64,000 bases of DNA, taken from Sedimentisphaerales bacterium (GTDB taxonomy: Bacteria; Planctomycetota; Phycisphaerae; Sedimentisphaerales; SM23-30). A program made the translations under genes and the position numbers. The stretch spans positions 62,001 to 126,000 of the forward strand of contig JANQJS010000037.1 of NCBI GenBank assembly GCA_028281535.1, read 5' to 3'. Positions 13,915 to 61,184 of this stretch are shown here, one piece after another. The first letter of the stretch is position 1; every line of letters starts with the position of its first letter. The notes under the pieces were generated by a model, which worked only from the letters and a program-made list of their open reading frames with translations, was not told the origin of the DNA and searched no databases.

Positions 13915-16900
13915 TTAATCTAAAAGCCAATTATTGGATAAAACACTGAAATCTTTGAGGTTGAAAATACCGTCCCCCTGGTTTGGTGAAATATCTTTCA
14001 GAGGCGTACCGGGCTGGAGCCATTCCTTTGAAAATGCTTGGAATTCATTGGGATGCTGGGTTGTAAGTAAGGCGAAATCAGCCATCGTGACAATGCCATC
14101 GCCGCCTTCAGGGTTAACATCATATTGAAGACTCTTGAGAAGCCAGACATCAACCAAGGTGGATAAATCCATCAGGTCCACTCCAAATGGACAGGCAAAA
14201 TCGCCAGGTATGGTTTCCCATGATAATTTTGGATAAGTTAAACCATCAGCACATATTTTCCAGAGATCATCTGTGCCATTCGCTATTTCGTCTGTAAAAT
14301 CCCAACCCGCGGATGTGAAGGTGCTTTTCATTTGTAGCTCGCTGGTGGTTTTTCCAGCAACACCTACTGGATCTGGGTTTTCATTACCAACCCCAGTAAG
14401 TATCCCTGAGGTTTCAATGTCCCAAAAGCAATTTAAAATAAAAGATTGATAATTATTTTCTCCCAATACCCCTCCTGGATTGTTATTTGAAAACACAGAA
14501 CCTACTGCAAAACAATTTATAATTTCTGAATTAACCAAATTACTTCCTACAAGCCCACCCGTTTTATCATTTCCAAAAACATTTGAATTTGAATAGCAAT
14601 TCGAAACAGTAGAGTTCTGATGGTTGTATCCAACGAGCCCTCCTATACTATATGAAGTGCCTGTTACATTATTATTTGAATAACTTTGATTAATAGATGA
14701 ATTATTGGAATTATATCCTACTAACCCTCCTACAATCCAGGCACCTGTAACATCGCCTGATGCATAGCAATTAATAACCATGGAATTATTATAATTTCTA
14801 CCAACAAGTCCACCTGTGCTAGAATTGCCTATAATATGGCTTGTTGAATAACAATTTGAAACCGTTGATTGATTATCATTTTCTCCCACTAAGCCACCCA
14901 CGCTTTGATTTCCTCGAATTTGGCCGCCTATGCTATAACAATGATCAATATTTCCACTATTTAAAAGACCAACCAACCCTCCTGTTTTTGTATCACCTTC
15001 CATATTAGGGTCCACCAAACCTAAATTGTAGATACCTTTCTCATAGATACTATTATCCACATTGCCAAATAACCCCACACCATCAAAGAAAGATTCATAG
15101 TATCGAATAGAAACATTTTGTATTTCCTGGTTATTACCATTAAATGAACCTGTAAATGGAACATCGTTACCACAAATAGGGGTTAATGATATATTAAGCA
15201 TATTAATATCATTAATTAGTTTGAAATGTTTATCACAATGGCAGTCATATAGGCTTAGATACAAAATATGATTTGGTTCTGTTATTTGATATGGATCCTC
15301 CAAGCTACCTGTTCCATCAGAAAATTCAAAGAACGGTGTTGGATCACCTGTATTCTCCTCCCAATATAATTGCGGGTATTCGGTGCCTTCATTAATAGTC
15401 CATATTACCTCATTACAATTCCAACCAACAAATGTTTCAGCGGTTTGTAATTGATCAGTGGTTTTACCAATACCACCGCTACTAGTTAATTGTCCGCTTG
15501 ATTCGATATTCCAAAATGAATTTACAATAGGGCGGTCTGATCCATCTCCAATTAATCCACCATAAGAACTGTTACCTAAAACTTGCCCAGTAGAATAACA
15601 ATTAATGACGGTTTTATCATTAAGTCTACCGATTAGTCCTCCTATGAAATATTCTCCAGAAACATCACCTAGTGCATAACTATTTAATATTATGGCCCCT
15701 TCGTTATATCCAACCAAACCGCCAATAATTGATTGTCCTGTTATATTGCCAGTCGCATAGCAGTTTTTTATTAATCCATTACCATAAGTATCCCTGTCTA
15801 TAAAACCTATTAGCCCACCTGTATTTTTATCATTTGTGAAATTTATTATATGGGCTTCAGAATAGCAATTTTGGATCGTAAAATCTGGATATGCGTATCC
15901 TATTAATCCTCCAGAGTTTTCTTTTCCATTAACAAAACCCGTTGTATAGCAATTTGTGACCGTCGATAAAAAACAAGAGCCAATTAATCCACCTGTATTA
16001 CGTTCTCCATTTACATGGCCTTGTTCGGTATAACAATAAGTAATATTACCTTTTAAATATCCAACCAATGCGCCTGTAGTTTGATCACCCATCACGTTCG
16101 GTTCGATTAGACCTAGATCATGAATAACATAATCATCATTCGTGTTGAACGCATAGCTAAACAAACCTGTGTATCTACCATTTGGTCCGCCATTAATTTG
16201 TAGGCCACTTATGGTATGATTCCCTCCATCAAACTGTCCAGTGAAGGGGGTTTCACTGTCTCCAATCGGACAAAAGAATAAACCAGATAGGTCAATATCT
16301 TGAATGAGTTGAAAGTATTGGTTCCAATCACATGGTATACGACTTAATGCCTCAAGGTCATTTTCATTACTAATCAAATAAGGATCTTCCGAAGTACCTG
16401 AACCACCTGAATACTGATAAGAAGTAGGTAAATTGGTGCCAGGTGTATCTTCCCAAATGAATCTGGGAGAATCTAACCCTTCATTAATTTTCCAAATTTC
16501 CTCTGAACAATTCCAACCGATAAAGGTGCTTGCTGTTTGCATTTGATTGGTTGTTATGCCCCAACCGATAGAAATCCCAGATCCTGTACTGGTTGATTGT
16601 CCACTGGTATTCATATCCCAAAAATTTGTAGGGCCATTTCCATAATTATTAAACCCTGTTAGTCCACCTGTTGCAGTGCCTGATGAAACAACACCTGTCG
16701 CATAGCAATTTGATGTAGGGCTAGCAGAATTATTCCATCCTATCAACCCCCCAACTCTTAGGGAGCCAGAGACATGACTTTTCGAGTAACAGTTGTTTAC
16801 ATTAAACGCTTTACCCGATAGACCTCCGACATTTTCTTGACCTACAACATTTCCTGTTGAAAAACATTGAGATAAATTTGAACCAAATCCTGAAAATCCT

Positions 16901-17481
16901 CCAACGTTTACTTGTCCATTTACATTTCCTGTGGAATAACATTGAAATAAGTTAGAGCCACTTCCTACCAATCCCCCCACAAAACGATTTCCAGTTACAT
17001 TAGCTCCCTCTGAATAACAATTTTTAACACCCTTATTTAATATGGATCCAATTAAGCTCCCTACATGATCAGAACCTGTGATATTAGGATTTATCAACCC
17101 AAGGTCATATATTGCATTGGGGCCATAGTTGTTACCAACATAACCAAATAATCCTATATTGTCAGAATTTGGCATATTAATTTGTAAGTTACTGATCGTT
17201 TTTTCGTTCCCATTAAACGTTCCAGAAAATTGGAAGAAATTGTTGCCAATCGGAATAAAGTTGATTCCTGTCATATCTAAATTGGCCGTTAATTTAAAGT
17301 GATCATCCCAATAGGTGAAGTTATTAGATAGGTTAACGAGGTCGGTGTTTTGCGAGATTAGATATGGGTCACCTAGGCTACCGTTGCCGCCGCTGAACTG
17401 TGCCAAAGTTGTTGAGGGCAAGAACATCAACGTGAATATGAAGAACAGACGGATAGAATCAAACTTTGGATTGTTTTCCAC
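13915..17481 (-). CDS. large secreted GLUG-repeat surface protein with dockerin-like C-terminus
   Basis: A ~1190-residue exported protein, probably cell-surface or extracellular. A signal peptide (SIRLFFIFTLMFLPSTTLAQ) is followed by three similar modules of roughly 330-370 residues. Each opens with a GGxGSxxDPYLIS-type strand and a NLDMTGINFIPIG-type segment, continues with many GLUG repeats (VGGLVG, then NCYS-x-G-x-V-x-G), and closes with an FW-D-x-x-x-SGQ...GWNCSEEIWKINEG block. The C-terminal ~90 residues hold dockerin-like repeats (GDGIVTMADFALLTT, GDGIFNLKDFSVLSNNWLLD). GLUG repeats are thought to form beta-helical adhesin-like folds. The start is the GTG at 17481, seven bases after AGGAG. 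The gene is monocistronic, next to the candidate origin. Confidence 0.88.
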   Translation of the reverse strand: MENNPKFDSIRLFFIFTLMFLPSTTLAQFSGGNGSLGDPYLISQNTDLVNLSNNFTYWDDHFKLTANLDMTGINFIPIGNNFFQFSGTFNGNEKTISNLQINMPNSDNIGLFGYVGNNYGPNAIYDLGLINPNITGSDHVGSLIGSILNKGVKNCYSEGANVTGNRFVGGLVGSGSNLFQCYSTGNVNGQVNVGGFSGFGSNLSQCFSTGNVVGQENVGGLSGKAFNVNNCYSKSHVSGSLRVGGLIGWNNSASPTSNCYATGVVSSGTATGGLTGFNNYGNGPTNFWDMNTSGQSTSTGSGISIGWGITTNQMQTASTFIGWNCSEEIWKINEGLDSPRFIWEDTPGTNLPTSYQYSGGSGTSEDPYLISNENDLEALSRIPCDWNQYFQLIQDIDLSGLFFCPIGDSETPFTGQFDGGNHTISGLQINGGPNGRYTGLFSYAFNTNDDYVIHDLGLIEPNVMGDQTTGALVGYLKGNITYCYTEQGHVNGERNTGGLIGSCFLSTVTNCYTTGFVNGKENSGGLIGYAYPDFTIQNCYSEAHIINFTNDKNTGGLIGFIDRDTYGNGLIKNCYATGNITGQSIIGGLVGYNEGAIILNSYALGDVSGEYFIGGLIGRLNDKTVINCYSTGQVLGNSSYGGLIGDGSDRPIVNSFWNIESSGQLTSSGGIGKTTDQLQTAETFVGWNCNEVIWTINEGTEYPQLYWEENTGDPTPFFEFSDGTGSLEDPYQITEPNHILYLSLYDCHCDKHFKLINDINMLNISLTPICGNDVPFTGSFNGNNQEIQNVSIRYYESFFDGVGLFGNVDNSIYEKGIYNLGLVDPNMEGDTKTGGLVGLLNSGNIDHCYSIGGQIRGNQSVGGLVGENDNQSTVSNCYSTSHIIGNSSTGGLVGRNYNNSMVINCYASGDVTGAWIVGGLVGYNSNNSSINQSYSNNNVTGTSYSIGGLVGYNHQNSTVSNCYSNSNVFGNDKTGGLVGSNLVNSEIINCFAVGSVFSNNNPGGVLGENNYQSFILNCFWDIETSGILTGVGNENPDPVGVAGKTTSELQMKSTFTSAGWDFTDEIANGTDDLWKICADGLTYPKLSWETIPGDFACPFGVDLMDLSTLVDVWLLKSLQYDVNPEGGDGIVTMADFALLTTQHPNEFQAFSKEWLQPGTPLKDISPNQGDGIFNLKDFSVLSNNWLLD

Positions 17482-17671
17482 AATAACGCTCCTGATGATG
17501 TAAAACATATTGATATTGACCAACTCGATTTTAACCTTATCGACCGATAATTAGAAAAAGGATAAATATGGACAAGCTTTCCTCTGAGATCCTAAGACTA
17601 TGATGGAGTCTTTAGAGTTAAAAATAAGGGGGTTACCTAAGTTTACATAATGAGGGGTGCTATTTATTTGG

Positions 17672-32207: not shown

Positions 32208-32336
32208 TTAACGAAGAATCCAGAAAAGACAGATGGCATAACAGATGTAGGTAATAGCGTTAATGATTCGCAGGCCAAAATTCATGCGTGAAAGCCATTT
32301 TCGGCCATGTGGATCAACATAGGTATCGATTGCCAT
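32208..32336 (-). CDS. 42-residue single-helix membrane peptide, third gene of the ExbB-like operon
   Basis: A short ORF starting ATG at 32336, with AAGGA nine bases upstream, 12 bases after the stop of the PIG-domain gene. The product begins MAIDTYVDPHGRKWLSRMNF and ends with a hydrophobic helix (INAITYICYAICLFWIL) and Arg. The basic N-terminal half predicts an inside location, with the helix crossing the membrane. Spacing and ribosome-binding site support co-translation with the channel genes. It is convergent with the YhaM-like gene, with 7 bases between stops. It may be a small accessory subunit of the complex; its function is unknown. Confidence 0.6.
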   Translation of the reverse strand: MAIDTYVDPHGRKWLSRMNFGLRIINAITYICYAICLFWILR

Positions 32337-32348
32337 GTGATGAATTCC

Positions 32349-33497
32349 TTATTTTGCCGCTTCTTTGAAGCAGTAATTTTTCCATAATGTTTTAATTAAC
32401 CAGCTTATCACAAAAATGATGCCTAAGACAAACCACTTAGGTGATTTTAATGGCGGAAGTTTTTGTGATTCTGCTACGGCCAGGGTATATTCTATGGTCT
32501 TTTTATATCCCTGGCTTTGACATTGAACCGTTAAATTGGTTTCTTTGTCGGTTAGTTGTTTTGGAATGCCAAAGATGCGACCATCAGAAAATCCTAAACC
32601 ATCTGGCAATGTGCCCGCCATTTTCCATTGATAGTTTCCATTGCCACCTGAAGCGGCCAGTGATAAATTATAATATTGATTGACCACCGCATCAGGTAAA
32701 TTTGTGGTTAAAATTTCTGGTGGTGTACGTTGCGGACGATATTCTTCTTCAGAAGGAAAATGGATTGAAAATTCAAACGAACGTGTATCTCTTTTTTCAT
32801 TAGTGCGTTGAGGTCTGGAATCTGTGACTTGAAAGACAAATTCTTCTTCCTCCATATCATCATAAGTGTAACCTGTAATGCGCCCTGTTTTAGAATCTAA
32901 TGTAAGATCGCCAGGCAATTCCTCTGTGCATCGCCATCGGTAAGGCGGTACGCCTCCCGTTGCAGCTAACGTCACATTATAATATTCGCCAATGATGGCA
33001 TTAGGCAGTGGCGATTGAGTTAAAATGCGAACGGGCTGAATCTCTGTTAAATCAACCTCACTTTCACCTAGAACCAATAGCTTATATTTGATACGAGTTT
33101 TACTATCTTCAGGGTTTTTCGTTTGTAATTTAAGGGCTGTTAGTTCCACTTCAAACGTAAACTCTTCTTCACTTTCATCTTCATCGTTGAGTTCTGGAAT
33201 GCCCTGCAGATACCCTTTTGTATCAAGGGTCATATTCCCGGGCAAGTTTTGTCCCGGTAATAAAGCCCAATGATAATCACCTGTTCCCCCCTGAGCGGAT
33301 AACCAGAGTTCATAATTTTCTCCAGTGGTGCCATTTGGCAGACGTTGTGTGTTAATGATTGGTTTGGTTCCAGCGACACCTATCATTAGAATAACCATCA
33401 GGAAAATAAATAGAAAGGCTCCGAACGCACCAAAAAGTGGATCGATAAAGATCGATAAGATGCTGGGAAGTTCTCGTGTTTTTCGCTTTCGTGCCAT
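32349..33497 (-). CDS. MotB/ExbD-like anchored protein with three PIG/cadherin-like domains
   Basis: A 382-residue protein. A short basic N-terminus is followed by one helix (residues ~12-42) with an Asp at position 19 at the start (ILSIFIDPLFGAFGAFLF), the position of the proton-carrying Asp in MotB and ExbD. Three tandem ~90-residue putative immunoglobulin-like (He_PIG) domains follow, each with a GEYYNVTLAATGGVPPYRW-like start and a LPGDLTLDSKTGRITG-like end. A second helix near the C-terminus (WFVLGIIFVISWLIKTLW) re-anchors the protein. Its gene is 38 bases downstream of an ExbB/MotA-type channel gene, so it is probably the B-type partner. No OmpA peptidoglycan-binding domain is present. 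The domains would face the periplasm. Confidence 0.78.
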   Translation of the reverse strand: MARKRKTRELPSILSIFIDPLFGAFGAFLFIFLMVILMIGVAGTKPIINTQRLPNGTTGENYELWLSAQGGTGDYHWALLPGQNLPGNMTLDTKGYLQGIPELNDEDESEEEFTFEVELTALKLQTKNPEDSKTRIKYKLLVLGESEVDLTEIQPVRILTQSPLPNAIIGEYYNVTLAATGGVPPYRWRCTEELPGDLTLDSKTGRITGYTYDDMEEEEFVFQVTDSRPQRTNEKRDTRSFEFSIHFPSEEEYRPQRTPPEILTTNLPDAVVNQYYNLSLAASGGNGNYQWKMAGTLPDGLGFSDGRIFGIPKQLTDKETNLTVQCQSQGYKKTIEYTLAVAESQKLPPLKSPKWFVLGIIFVISWLIKTLWKNYCFKEAAK

Positions 33498-33535
33498 ACG
33501 ATTGTTTCTCTCAGAGATTTAACGTTGAAGTTAAA

Positions 33536-34570
33536 TTAATGTTCTGAGTGTTCTTTTTGAGCCTGGGCCAGTTGTTTGAGTGCTGCGATTAATTCATTCA
33601 GTTTTTCTTCATTCATGGATGTCACTTTTTCCAAGTGAAGATCTTTCATCGTTGTGTTCAGTTGATTCGTTTGATCCTGAAACAGAAAACCTAATCGACT
33701 GTAATAATCATCCGTATCTTCAAAACTGCCTGAAATCTCATCCACACAAAAGGCATCAATTCGATAAAGTAAATCTTCGTCTCGTTTTTGTGTGTAGGAA
33801 AGAATCGCTAAAATGATCGAAGTGAGAAATAAAGCTAGCAAGGTTGTGTCAAATGCCAACCCCAAATCACGTGTTACTTGTGGTATCTGATCTTTGACCG
33901 CATCAAAATTGGATCCTTCTTGAATCACAACACCAAATCCTGCAATCGCACTACCGATACCAATCACAGTGCCAATAAATCCAAGCGTTGGGATCAGCCA
34001 GACAATATAGCGAAGATTACTATAAGAGGTTTCAATAGCCAAGCTGTCCATTTCGCTTAAATGATTTAAAACTGTATCGACATCTTTGCTGCGTTTGGTT
34101 TTGAAAAAACGACGTACGGCATGATAGAGTCGTCGGCCTGTTTGCGATTTCACGAGAACGGGCTTGAGTGTTTTGATTTCTTCAAAAAGAACTTTCGCTT
34201 TATCTGAGGAAATCGTGGAATAGCTGCCAAAGATTTTTTTGCGAATTTCAGACCAGACATGACAAATTTGCTTGTAAGAAAGTCTTTCTCTCGAGCGGAC
34301 ATTTATTTTTCTTGCAAGTAAGAATATGGATAACCAAAAGAAAAAGACTTCAATGTAAGGAATTACTCCACGTTGTAGAAGAATATCTGAAATACGATGA
34401 AAATTAAATCCCATTGTGTCTGTTAGATAGACTAACCCTGAGACCAGAAGTGCTGTAGCCGTTGTTGCAACAGTTGCAAACCCCAGACCGGCCGCACCGG
34501 AAATCAGGATGTTTTCCTGAGGAGTCGAATCCAACGTCCTGTCGGTTGAAGGAGATTTATCAAGCTTCAT
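33536..34570 (-). CDS. MotA/TolQ/ExbB-family proton channel protein
   Basis: A 344-residue inner-membrane protein. Helices lie at about 23-50, 69-87, 188-214 and 236-260. The last two form the conserved channel domain: IVWLIPTLGFIGTVIGIGSAIAGF and LGLAFDTTLLALFLTSIILAIL, including the Thr pair typical of the channel-lining helix. A cytoplasmic region of ~100 residues separates helices two and three, and a hydrophilic coiled-coil-like tail (~270-344; MNEEKLNELIAALKQLAQAQK) ends the protein. Such proteins use the proton gradient to drive motion or energy transfer with a MotB/ExbD partner, here probably the next gene. It is not the standard TolQ (no TolA/TolB nearby) or flagellar MotA. Confidence 0.9.
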   Translation of the reverse strand: MKLDKSPSTDRTLDSTPQENILISGAAGLGFATVATTATALLVSGLVYLTDTMGFNFHRISDILLQRGVIPYIEVFFFWLSIFLLARKINVRSRERLSYKQICHVWSEIRKKIFGSYSTISSDKAKVLFEEIKTLKPVLVKSQTGRRLYHAVRRFFKTKRSKDVDTVLNHLSEMDSLAIETSYSNLRYIVWLIPTLGFIGTVIGIGSAIAGFGVVIQEGSNFDAVKDQIPQVTRDLGLAFDTTLLALFLTSIILAILSYTQKRDEDLLYRIDAFCVDEISGSFEDTDDYYSRLGFLFQDQTNQLNTTMKDLHLEKVTSMNEEKLNELIAALKQLAQAQKEHSEH

Positions 34571-34916
34571 TCTAACGGTTCCAATTGGCCAGTTATATGG
34601 TTAAAAATTTTATGTAATCCTTGTAGTACTAATCGGATAGTCAATGGATGAGCTTACGAAGAATGTCTGAATTCATATACGAATATAGGTCCGATAGAGT
34701 TCAGGGGGACTGAACCATCATTCCTTGTTAGTAGAGCCCGTTTTTTGTGTGGTGAGTCCTGCTGTGGTAACTAGTTAAGAAACCCTAATTAAATTATTCG
34801 GACCTTTGAATCACTCCATAATGGTGCTCAAGCTTGTGATTTTAGTAATAAACCGGGTTGTCTATTTATTATAGATGTAAAATATCCAAAAGTCATTTTG
34901 GTTCAACAAAAATCCA
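34571..34916. other. gene-free stretch upstream of the ExbB-like operon
   Basis: About 350 bases separating divergent transcripts. I see no ORF with a ribosome-binding site, no strong hairpin and no recognisable riboswitch. Confidence 0.5.
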
Positions 34917-60296: not shown

Positions 60297-61184
60297 ATGA
60301 GAGTACTAGTGAAGCGGGGTAGTTCATTAATCAATGATCTGCGGTTCGAGAAAGGTCCTATTTACATTGGTCGTCAGCGCGGCAGCCAGGTTTTTTTGCC
60401 CGATCGTAGTGTATCCCGACAGCATGCCGTTATCTTGACCAATGATGAAGGTGTTTGGCTGGTGCAGGATTTGCAGTCGGCGAACCGTACACTGCTTAAT
60501 GGCAAACCGGTGGCCAAGGCTGCGATTCATGAAGGGGATATTATTGCTATCTCCGATTTTTCTATTGAGATACACTTTGAAGTTGAATCCCAGGTCAATT
60601 CACCGGAGCACCCCATTGATTTAAATGATACAGTGATGCATGAACCGAGTGCAATGCAAACGGTTTATAAATCAGAACGCCAGAAAGTGATTCATTTGGC
60701 ACCGACTCGATTGAATGATTTTTATCTTCTGGCTATTGAATTATGCCGTGTGGATGATCAGGAGGAATTGTTATCAAAATTGATAAAATTGTTGATGAGT
60801 CAATTTGATGCGTATCATGTCTGGGCCGGTTTGCGAGAAACAACGCAGGGACCAGTAACCTGTCATGGTGGATTGGCGCGAGGCGGGCATCAAATTACTT
60901 TAGAACAATTGTTTGGTAAGAATTTTATCCGCGAGTCATTGCAAAAAGAAACCTATATTCTTTTACCTAATTTGGCGGATGCCTCTAACCCATCTGATAC
61001 CAATATTCACACACTCGAATTTTTATGCTCTGCGATGGCGGTTCCTATTTCTTCTCCTTTAGGTGCTTATGGTGTGATATACGTCGATAATGGTGCTGAC
61101 CAAGCGAGTTTTAATTACCAGGATTTGGATTACTTAACACTTGTTTCTACTTTAGTCGCAGCGATTGTGGAACATATTGGTTAA
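60297..61184 (+). CDS. FHA-domain protein with C-terminal GAF domain
   Basis: A 295-residue cytosolic signalling protein. The FHA domain (residues ~1-95) has IGRQRGSQVFLPDRSVSRQHA (Gly-Arg and Ser-x-x-His phosphothreonine contacts) and ANRTLLNGKPV (Asn contact). A linker is followed by a GAF-like domain (~155-290; LLAIELCRVDDQEELLSKL, AMAVPISSPLGAYGVIYVD). It would read out a Ser/Thr kinase; no kinase is adjacent. GGGAG lies before the ATG. Confidence 0.92.
   Translation: MRVLVKRGSSLINDLRFEKGPIYIGRQRGSQVFLPDRSVSRQHAVILTNDEGVWLVQDLQSANRTLLNGKPVAKAAIHEGDIIAISDFSIEIHFEVESQVNSPEHPIDLNDTVMHEPSAMQTVYKSERQKVIHLAPTRLNDFYLLAIELCRVDDQEELLSKLIKLLMSQFDAYHVWAGLRETTQGPVTCHGGLARGGHQITLEQLFGKNFIRESLQKETYILLPNLADASNPSDTNIHTLEFLCSAMAVPISSPLGAYGVIYVDNGADQASFNYQDLDYLTLVSTLVAAIVEHIG

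Follow-up and report, generated by a model that had tools for sequence, protein, structure and literature searches.

A candidate ion-driven membrane motor with a PIG-domain axle protein in a Sedimentisphaerales genome

Related motors and the layout of the locus

The closest described systems are the motors in which a transpore helix (TPH) is joined to a vWA domain, published in 2025 (Mol Biol Evol; PMC12204202). The axle of these motors itself carries the working domain, and AF3 models of TPH-vWA relatives place the axle Asp inside a Thr ring (PMC12204202). In Zorya that Asp, facing a ring of Ser/Thr residues, has been shown to matter (PMC11890865), and GldM bears a multi-domain periplasmic shaft on its motor helix (PMC9389320).

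The locus described here lies in a 64,000-nucleotide stretch of Sedimentisphaerales DNA, referred to as the window. Three minus-strand open reading frames encode subunit A of the MotA/TolQ/ExbB family (344 aa, 33536..34570), the TPH-PIG subunit B with two membrane helices around three PIG domains (382 aa, 32349..33497) and the mini-gene C for a peptide with one membrane helix (42 aa, 32208..32336). An earlier note made from the letters of the window had reported these three genes and a spacing of 12 bases between B and C, and both are found as it described; the gap between A and B is 38 nt. Co-transcription of the three is suggested by this spacing. The sole promoter-like site upstream of A on its strand (34868..34896, minus) is a weak candidate, the count of such sites in the window being no higher than in shuffles. 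In the gene list the operon is flanked by housekeeping genes and stands alone. Elsewhere in the window are an FHA-GAF protein on the plus strand (60297-61184), which places an FHA gene 26 kb from the operon, and a 1201-aa protein with GLUG repeats (13915-17523).

The TPH-vWA motors, for example that of Idiomarina (locus L112), resemble the window operon in combining a TolQ-family ring gene with a partner that has an N-terminal Asp-bearing transpore helix and no TolR or ExbD domain, and their A subunits share the WLIPTLGFIGTV core with that of the window. The window differs from them in having PIG domains instead of vWA, a second membrane helix and the 42-aa peptide, in encoding a single partner and not a pair, and in lacking FHA, PP2C and kinase neighbours. 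Planctomycete loci with a TolQ-like gene and two partners use the same A family and the same axle-helix motif, but their partners are usually about 270-390 aa long, many of them coiled-coil-like by eye, and these loci, unlike the window, have neither PIG domains nor a mini-gene.

Among the longer-known systems, ZorAB of Zorya likewise pairs a membrane ring with an Asp axle, and ZorA is the best PADLOC match of window A (3.9e-7). The window nevertheless lacks the cell-wall-binding domain, the long A tail and zorC/D/E of Zorya (none of these genes was seen near the operon when the gene list was inspected by eye), and ZorB models did not match the PIG protein. GldLM also has a motor axle with several periplasmic domains, but B has no GldM match in Pfam; GldM is absent from the listed Foldseek rows as well, where the multi-domain model of B is too loose to exclude GldM domains. 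With ExbBD, TolQR and MotAB the operon shares the ring fold, the Thr positions and the axle Asp, whereas it lacks the ExbD/TolR fold, the OmpA/MotB domain and TonB/TolA. Membership in the Tol, Exb, flagellar stator or Zorya systems was rejected, as ExbD/TolR, OmpA and ZorB domains and zorC/D/E were not found. The earlier view that the layout is unlike Tol, Exb, Mot and Zorya is upheld, and it probably holds for Gld as well.

Predicted ring subunit and axle protein, and their wider family

Subunit A is a member of the MotA/TolQ/ExbB superfamily. It matches PF01618 (MotA_ExbB) at 8e-7 with 29.3 bits, above the curated cut-off of 22.9, and a TM scan predicts four membrane helices. The AF2 model of A is helical and of high confidence (pLDDT 88.4), and the PDB structures nearest to it are those of TolQ and ExbB, with Z from 14.3 down to about 12; TolQ aligns over 207-215 residues at Z 14.3 and an rmsd of 3.0-4.1, and MotA and ZorA rank next at Z of about 10, in a comparison where unrelated helical rows lie mostly at or below 9.9 and reach 11.5 at the highest. 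This comparison shows the TolQ/ExbB fold with an extra N-terminal helix relative to TolQ, the helices forming two pairs about 100 residues apart, and a short cytoplasmic tail of about 60 aa after the last long helix of the model. Searches of PDB sequences with A (phmmer) and with the profile of alignment A4 returned coiled-coil or chance matches only. Thr201 (33968..33970, minus) aligns with Thr148 of E. coli ExbB and Thr243 (33842..33844, minus) with Thr181. Both are invariant in alignments A6, which includes E. coli ExbB, and A4, and A thus carries the pore-lining Thr pair of ExbB. The description of A as a four-helix gene of the proton-channel type is borne out by the Pfam match, the TolQ-like model and the predicted helices.

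Protein B matches He_PIG of Pfam at 5e-19 in three stretches. In its AF2 model, helices at residues 13-42 and 355-381 flank three beta-sandwich domains, and the Foldseek matches of the model are Ig and cadherin domains; because the pTM is 0.34, the arrangement of the domains is unreliable. The first helix (33372..33461, minus), with the motif FIDPLFGAFGAFLFIFLMVILMIG, is the predicted axle, or transpore helix, from the model and the partner alignment. It aligns with about 140 axle helices from other partners, and Asp19 (33441..33443, minus) stands in register with them at the ion-carrying Asp position of ExbD, TolR and MotB. The three PIG/Ig-like domains occupy approximately residues 46-341 (32475..33362, minus) and are predicted to be periplasmic. 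They are followed by the C-terminal return helix TM2 (residues 355-381; 32355..32435, minus), supported by the model and alignment A3, where it is preceded by a KSPKW motif. The OmpA, ExbD, TolR and MotB models gave no match to B. The earlier note's picture of B, with an Asp at the MotB/ExbD position of the first helix, a body of three PIG-like domains, a second helix and no OmpA domain, therefore stands in each part. In a plasmid protein search with B the alignments lie from residue 36 onward, so that these matches concern the PIG/Ig repeats only.

He_PIG is the sole match of B above cut-off and the model is Ig-like, which leaves B with an N-terminal transpore helix and no vWA domain. Because of this combination the window system is best classed, from its sequence, as a PIG-bearing variant of the TPH-type TolQ-like motors. 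Subunit A belongs to a broad, non-canonical TolQ-like family, whose planctomycete members usually occur with two TolR-like or transpore-helix partners (71/392 genomes, E 1e-12). A scan of 84,980 species genomes yielded 80 A-subunit loci. In other phyla the family occurs with vWA-type transpore partners at 63 of 80 loci, FHA at 52, PP2C at 47 and kinases at 38. The impression that the system stands alone has to be given up, as A is part of a widespread family and fusions of TPH axles to vWA had already been described.

When the window axle helix was aligned with the partner helices of about 160 loci, 116 of these showed Asp at the position of Asp19. Helices of the same motif without the Asp form a SLFPFL[S/A] subtype, several members of which sit beside a second, Asp-bearing partner; at seven SLFPFL[S/A] loci no such second partner was found nearby. 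The remaining rows without Asp look like unrelated signal peptides. Asp thus appears to be the rule, and not universal, among the axle helices of the wider family. Its absence from some partners would fit a degenerate or non-motor channel, in which an ExbB relative and a membrane-held, adhesin-like PIG protein do no ion-driven work, but in the PIG clade the Asp and both Thr residues are kept over a large divergence, and this explanation is considered very improbable.

Several further features of the family loci were noted. The seven loci without an Asp-bearing partner are closely related and apparently hold only the SLFPFL[S/A] protein, and many planctomycete loci (among L044-L103 and L194-L213) encode two different axle partners. 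In L049, L050 and L055 the ExbB-like gene overlaps by 4 bases a gene for a protein of 381 aa; the start of this protein, WYFKSDE.EYGPYSLDEL, resembles GYF, and axle partners follow.

Relatives with a PIG partner

The top three loci of the genome scan all have a PIG partner immediately downstream of A. They are L104, in a Chloroflexi-labelled genome and 40% identical to window A in the best segment; L105, in a Bacteroidales genome; and L106, a contig labelled Phycisphaerales that was also found in G084, the sole genome with adjacent A and B among 98 relatives searched. The pair is therefore adjacent in four of four genomes including the window, and exceeds chance because it recurs side by side in the three others. 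In L105 and L106 the alignment with window B runs from the first residue through the Asp axle helix and first PIG domain. Asp19, on whose conservation the earlier note had staked its proposal, is kept in all three readable PIG partners (window, L105 and L106). It is unreadable in L104 because a deletion, either genuine or an assembly artefact, has broken the frame and removed the start of B together with the end of A. This damaged junction spans L104:3900-4070, where the frame breaks and the axle helix is missing, and errors of assembly or binning may affect the contig. The A subunit of L104 has a longer coiled tail than that of the window. Its B protein shares the C-terminal helix (SPRW..LGLVFV against SPKW..LGIIFV in the window), with RSPRW as the equivalent of the window KSPKW.

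In a 57-row tree, which omits E. coli ExbB and four long-branch rows, the four PIG-partnered A subunits form one clade with support of 99/98. Once L107 and other long branches are included, L107 intrudes and the PIG group needs two changes and not one. A search of 392 genomes of the window's phylum with the axle and first PIG domain as the query found no second TPH-PIG gene; the listed matches, the window aside, consist of PIG only, plus one axle helix alone. Searches of the phyla of L104 (251 genomes) and L105 (345 genomes) found no further close relatives, and viral contigs contained no relatives. The TPH-PIG system is rare, and the co-occurrence across Planctomycetota that the earlier note had proposed as a check is not a general trait of the phylum.

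Peptide C has a polar N-terminus with VD..GR.WL followed by one membrane helix, and a ribosome-binding-like AAGGA belongs to its gene. It did not match the family models applied to A and B. In L104 a corresponding peptide (MVVGPTPVDETGRFWLAIVKPIGSLVISVLTVIGYVLCLLWILGYIP; L104:5528-5671) lies directly after B, 33 nt beyond its stop codon and with GGAGG in front. The two are identical at 16 of 37 aligned residues, with a local score of 78; among 20,000 shuffles, each done separately within the polar and the hydrophobic half, the highest score was 50. Since this homologue occupies the same place, C exceeds chance and is a genuine gene, at the least in the branch of the window and L104. A mini-gene HMM run over the loci gathered by that stage found the window and L104 only. 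Conservation of all three genes is judged on L104 and L105, as the contig of L106 stops within B, and it holds in L104, one of these two. The mini-gene is absent from the L105 locus, so C does not occur in all members; of the proposed three-gene co-conservation, the A-PIG pair holds throughout and the peptide is shared with L104.

The PIG proteins of these relatives also bear on a possible GldM- or TolA-like transducer, in which the A ring would stay fixed and the moving PIG arm of a B dimer would use its Ig-like domains to do work on a partner in the envelope or outer membrane. PIG domains are of a binding type, and the seven PIG-like units counted by eye in the L105 protein would give such an arm, comparable with the GldM shaft, a longer reach. 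The terminal second membrane helix in the window and L104 would however tie the arm to the inner membrane, and no outer-membrane partner gene adjoins the window operon. A transducer of this kind is regarded as unlikely.

Two of the neighbourhoods contain signalling genes. In L104 a TIR-FGE-FGE gene (L104:401-2395) ends just upstream of A, and its TIR part scores with ThsB; the FGE parts are two FGE-sulfatase domains after the TIR. Downstream of the PIG motor in L105 follow genes for a zinc-ribbon-like protein (by eye), Hsp70, vWA-FHA, FHA-kinase, PP2C and kinase-FGE proteins. The Bacteroidales run (L105:1-6801 and L240:1-10421) holds the TPH-PIG motor and the signalling genes all on one strand. 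FGE thus lies beside signalling domains in two of the three PIG contexts with readable flanks, and these two cases hint at regulated stress or conflict/defence signalling. A signalling motor of Zorya-like logic, compatible with a 5:2 motor, would use the PIG domains to sense envelope disturbance and control cytoplasmic effectors. Both neighbourhoods, the ZorA score of A and the frequent FHA, PP2C and kinase genes near non-planctomycete relatives agree with it. Against this, such neighbours occur at only two PIG loci, the window operon sits among housekeeping genes without them or zorC/D/E, and viral contigs hold no relatives. On balance a signalling role of this form is held to be doubtful.

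A proposed membrane-held motor

In the reading preferred here, the operon specifies an ion-driven motor of the inner membrane that belongs to the 5:2 class and has the N-terminal helix of the PIG protein as its axle. This reading is considered fairly probable because of the A clade, Asp19, the conservation of Thr201 and Thr243 and the adjacent pair. The TolQ/ExbB-like A subunit would form a ring, presumably a pentamer, around the N-terminal helices of a presumed B dimer. Asp19 on the axle would take up ions, probably protons, and hand them along the Thr201/Thr243 ring, and by analogy with ExbBD, TolQR, MotAB and ZorAB this passage may drive rotation of the ring relative to the axle. The PIG domains, in the predicted topology, would form a periplasmic arm for ligand binding or anchoring, from which the second helix of B would bring the chain back into the inner membrane. 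TM2 and the 42-aa peptide most likely keep the axle membrane-bound, in place of the attachment to the cell wall that MotB and ZorB use.

Several observations weigh against the 5:2 motor: the Asp-less SLFPFL[S/A] subtype of the wider family, the second change that the PIG group needs with long branches included, the low pTM of the B model, the absence of the mini-gene in L105 and the damaged exbB/pig junction of L104 on a possibly mis-binned contig. The earlier idea of a proton machine with an Ig-like part on an Asp axle is retained for the A subunit type, the axle and the predicted periplasmic domains, and not for its isolated status.

With moderate confidence, the PIG loop is assigned an anchoring or sensing role, and TM2 with the peptide that of an in-membrane anchor. 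These roles are favoured because a chain tethered to the membrane at each end would be poorly suited to be a free periplasmic shaft. A fuller version, in which the axle's C-terminal helix and the 42-residue peptide staple it back into the inner membrane, an Ig-like sensor loop stands above the ring and work is delivered cytoplasmically to TIR-FGE or kinase-FGE effectors, is speculative and, taken as a whole, quite unlikely.

The TolQ-like A family and the TPH axles with vWA domains were known; the PIG axle, the membrane-return helix and the peptide partner are new. An Ig-like axle bearing two membrane helices would be a new class of axle among ion-driven motors, and it would come with a small protein as partner. 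Three testable residues in a compact three-gene system offer a way to ask whether such motors can dispense with anchorage to the cell wall. The combination of one ring family with many periplasmic modules (vWA, PIG and coiled coil) would amount to a modular motor toolbox.
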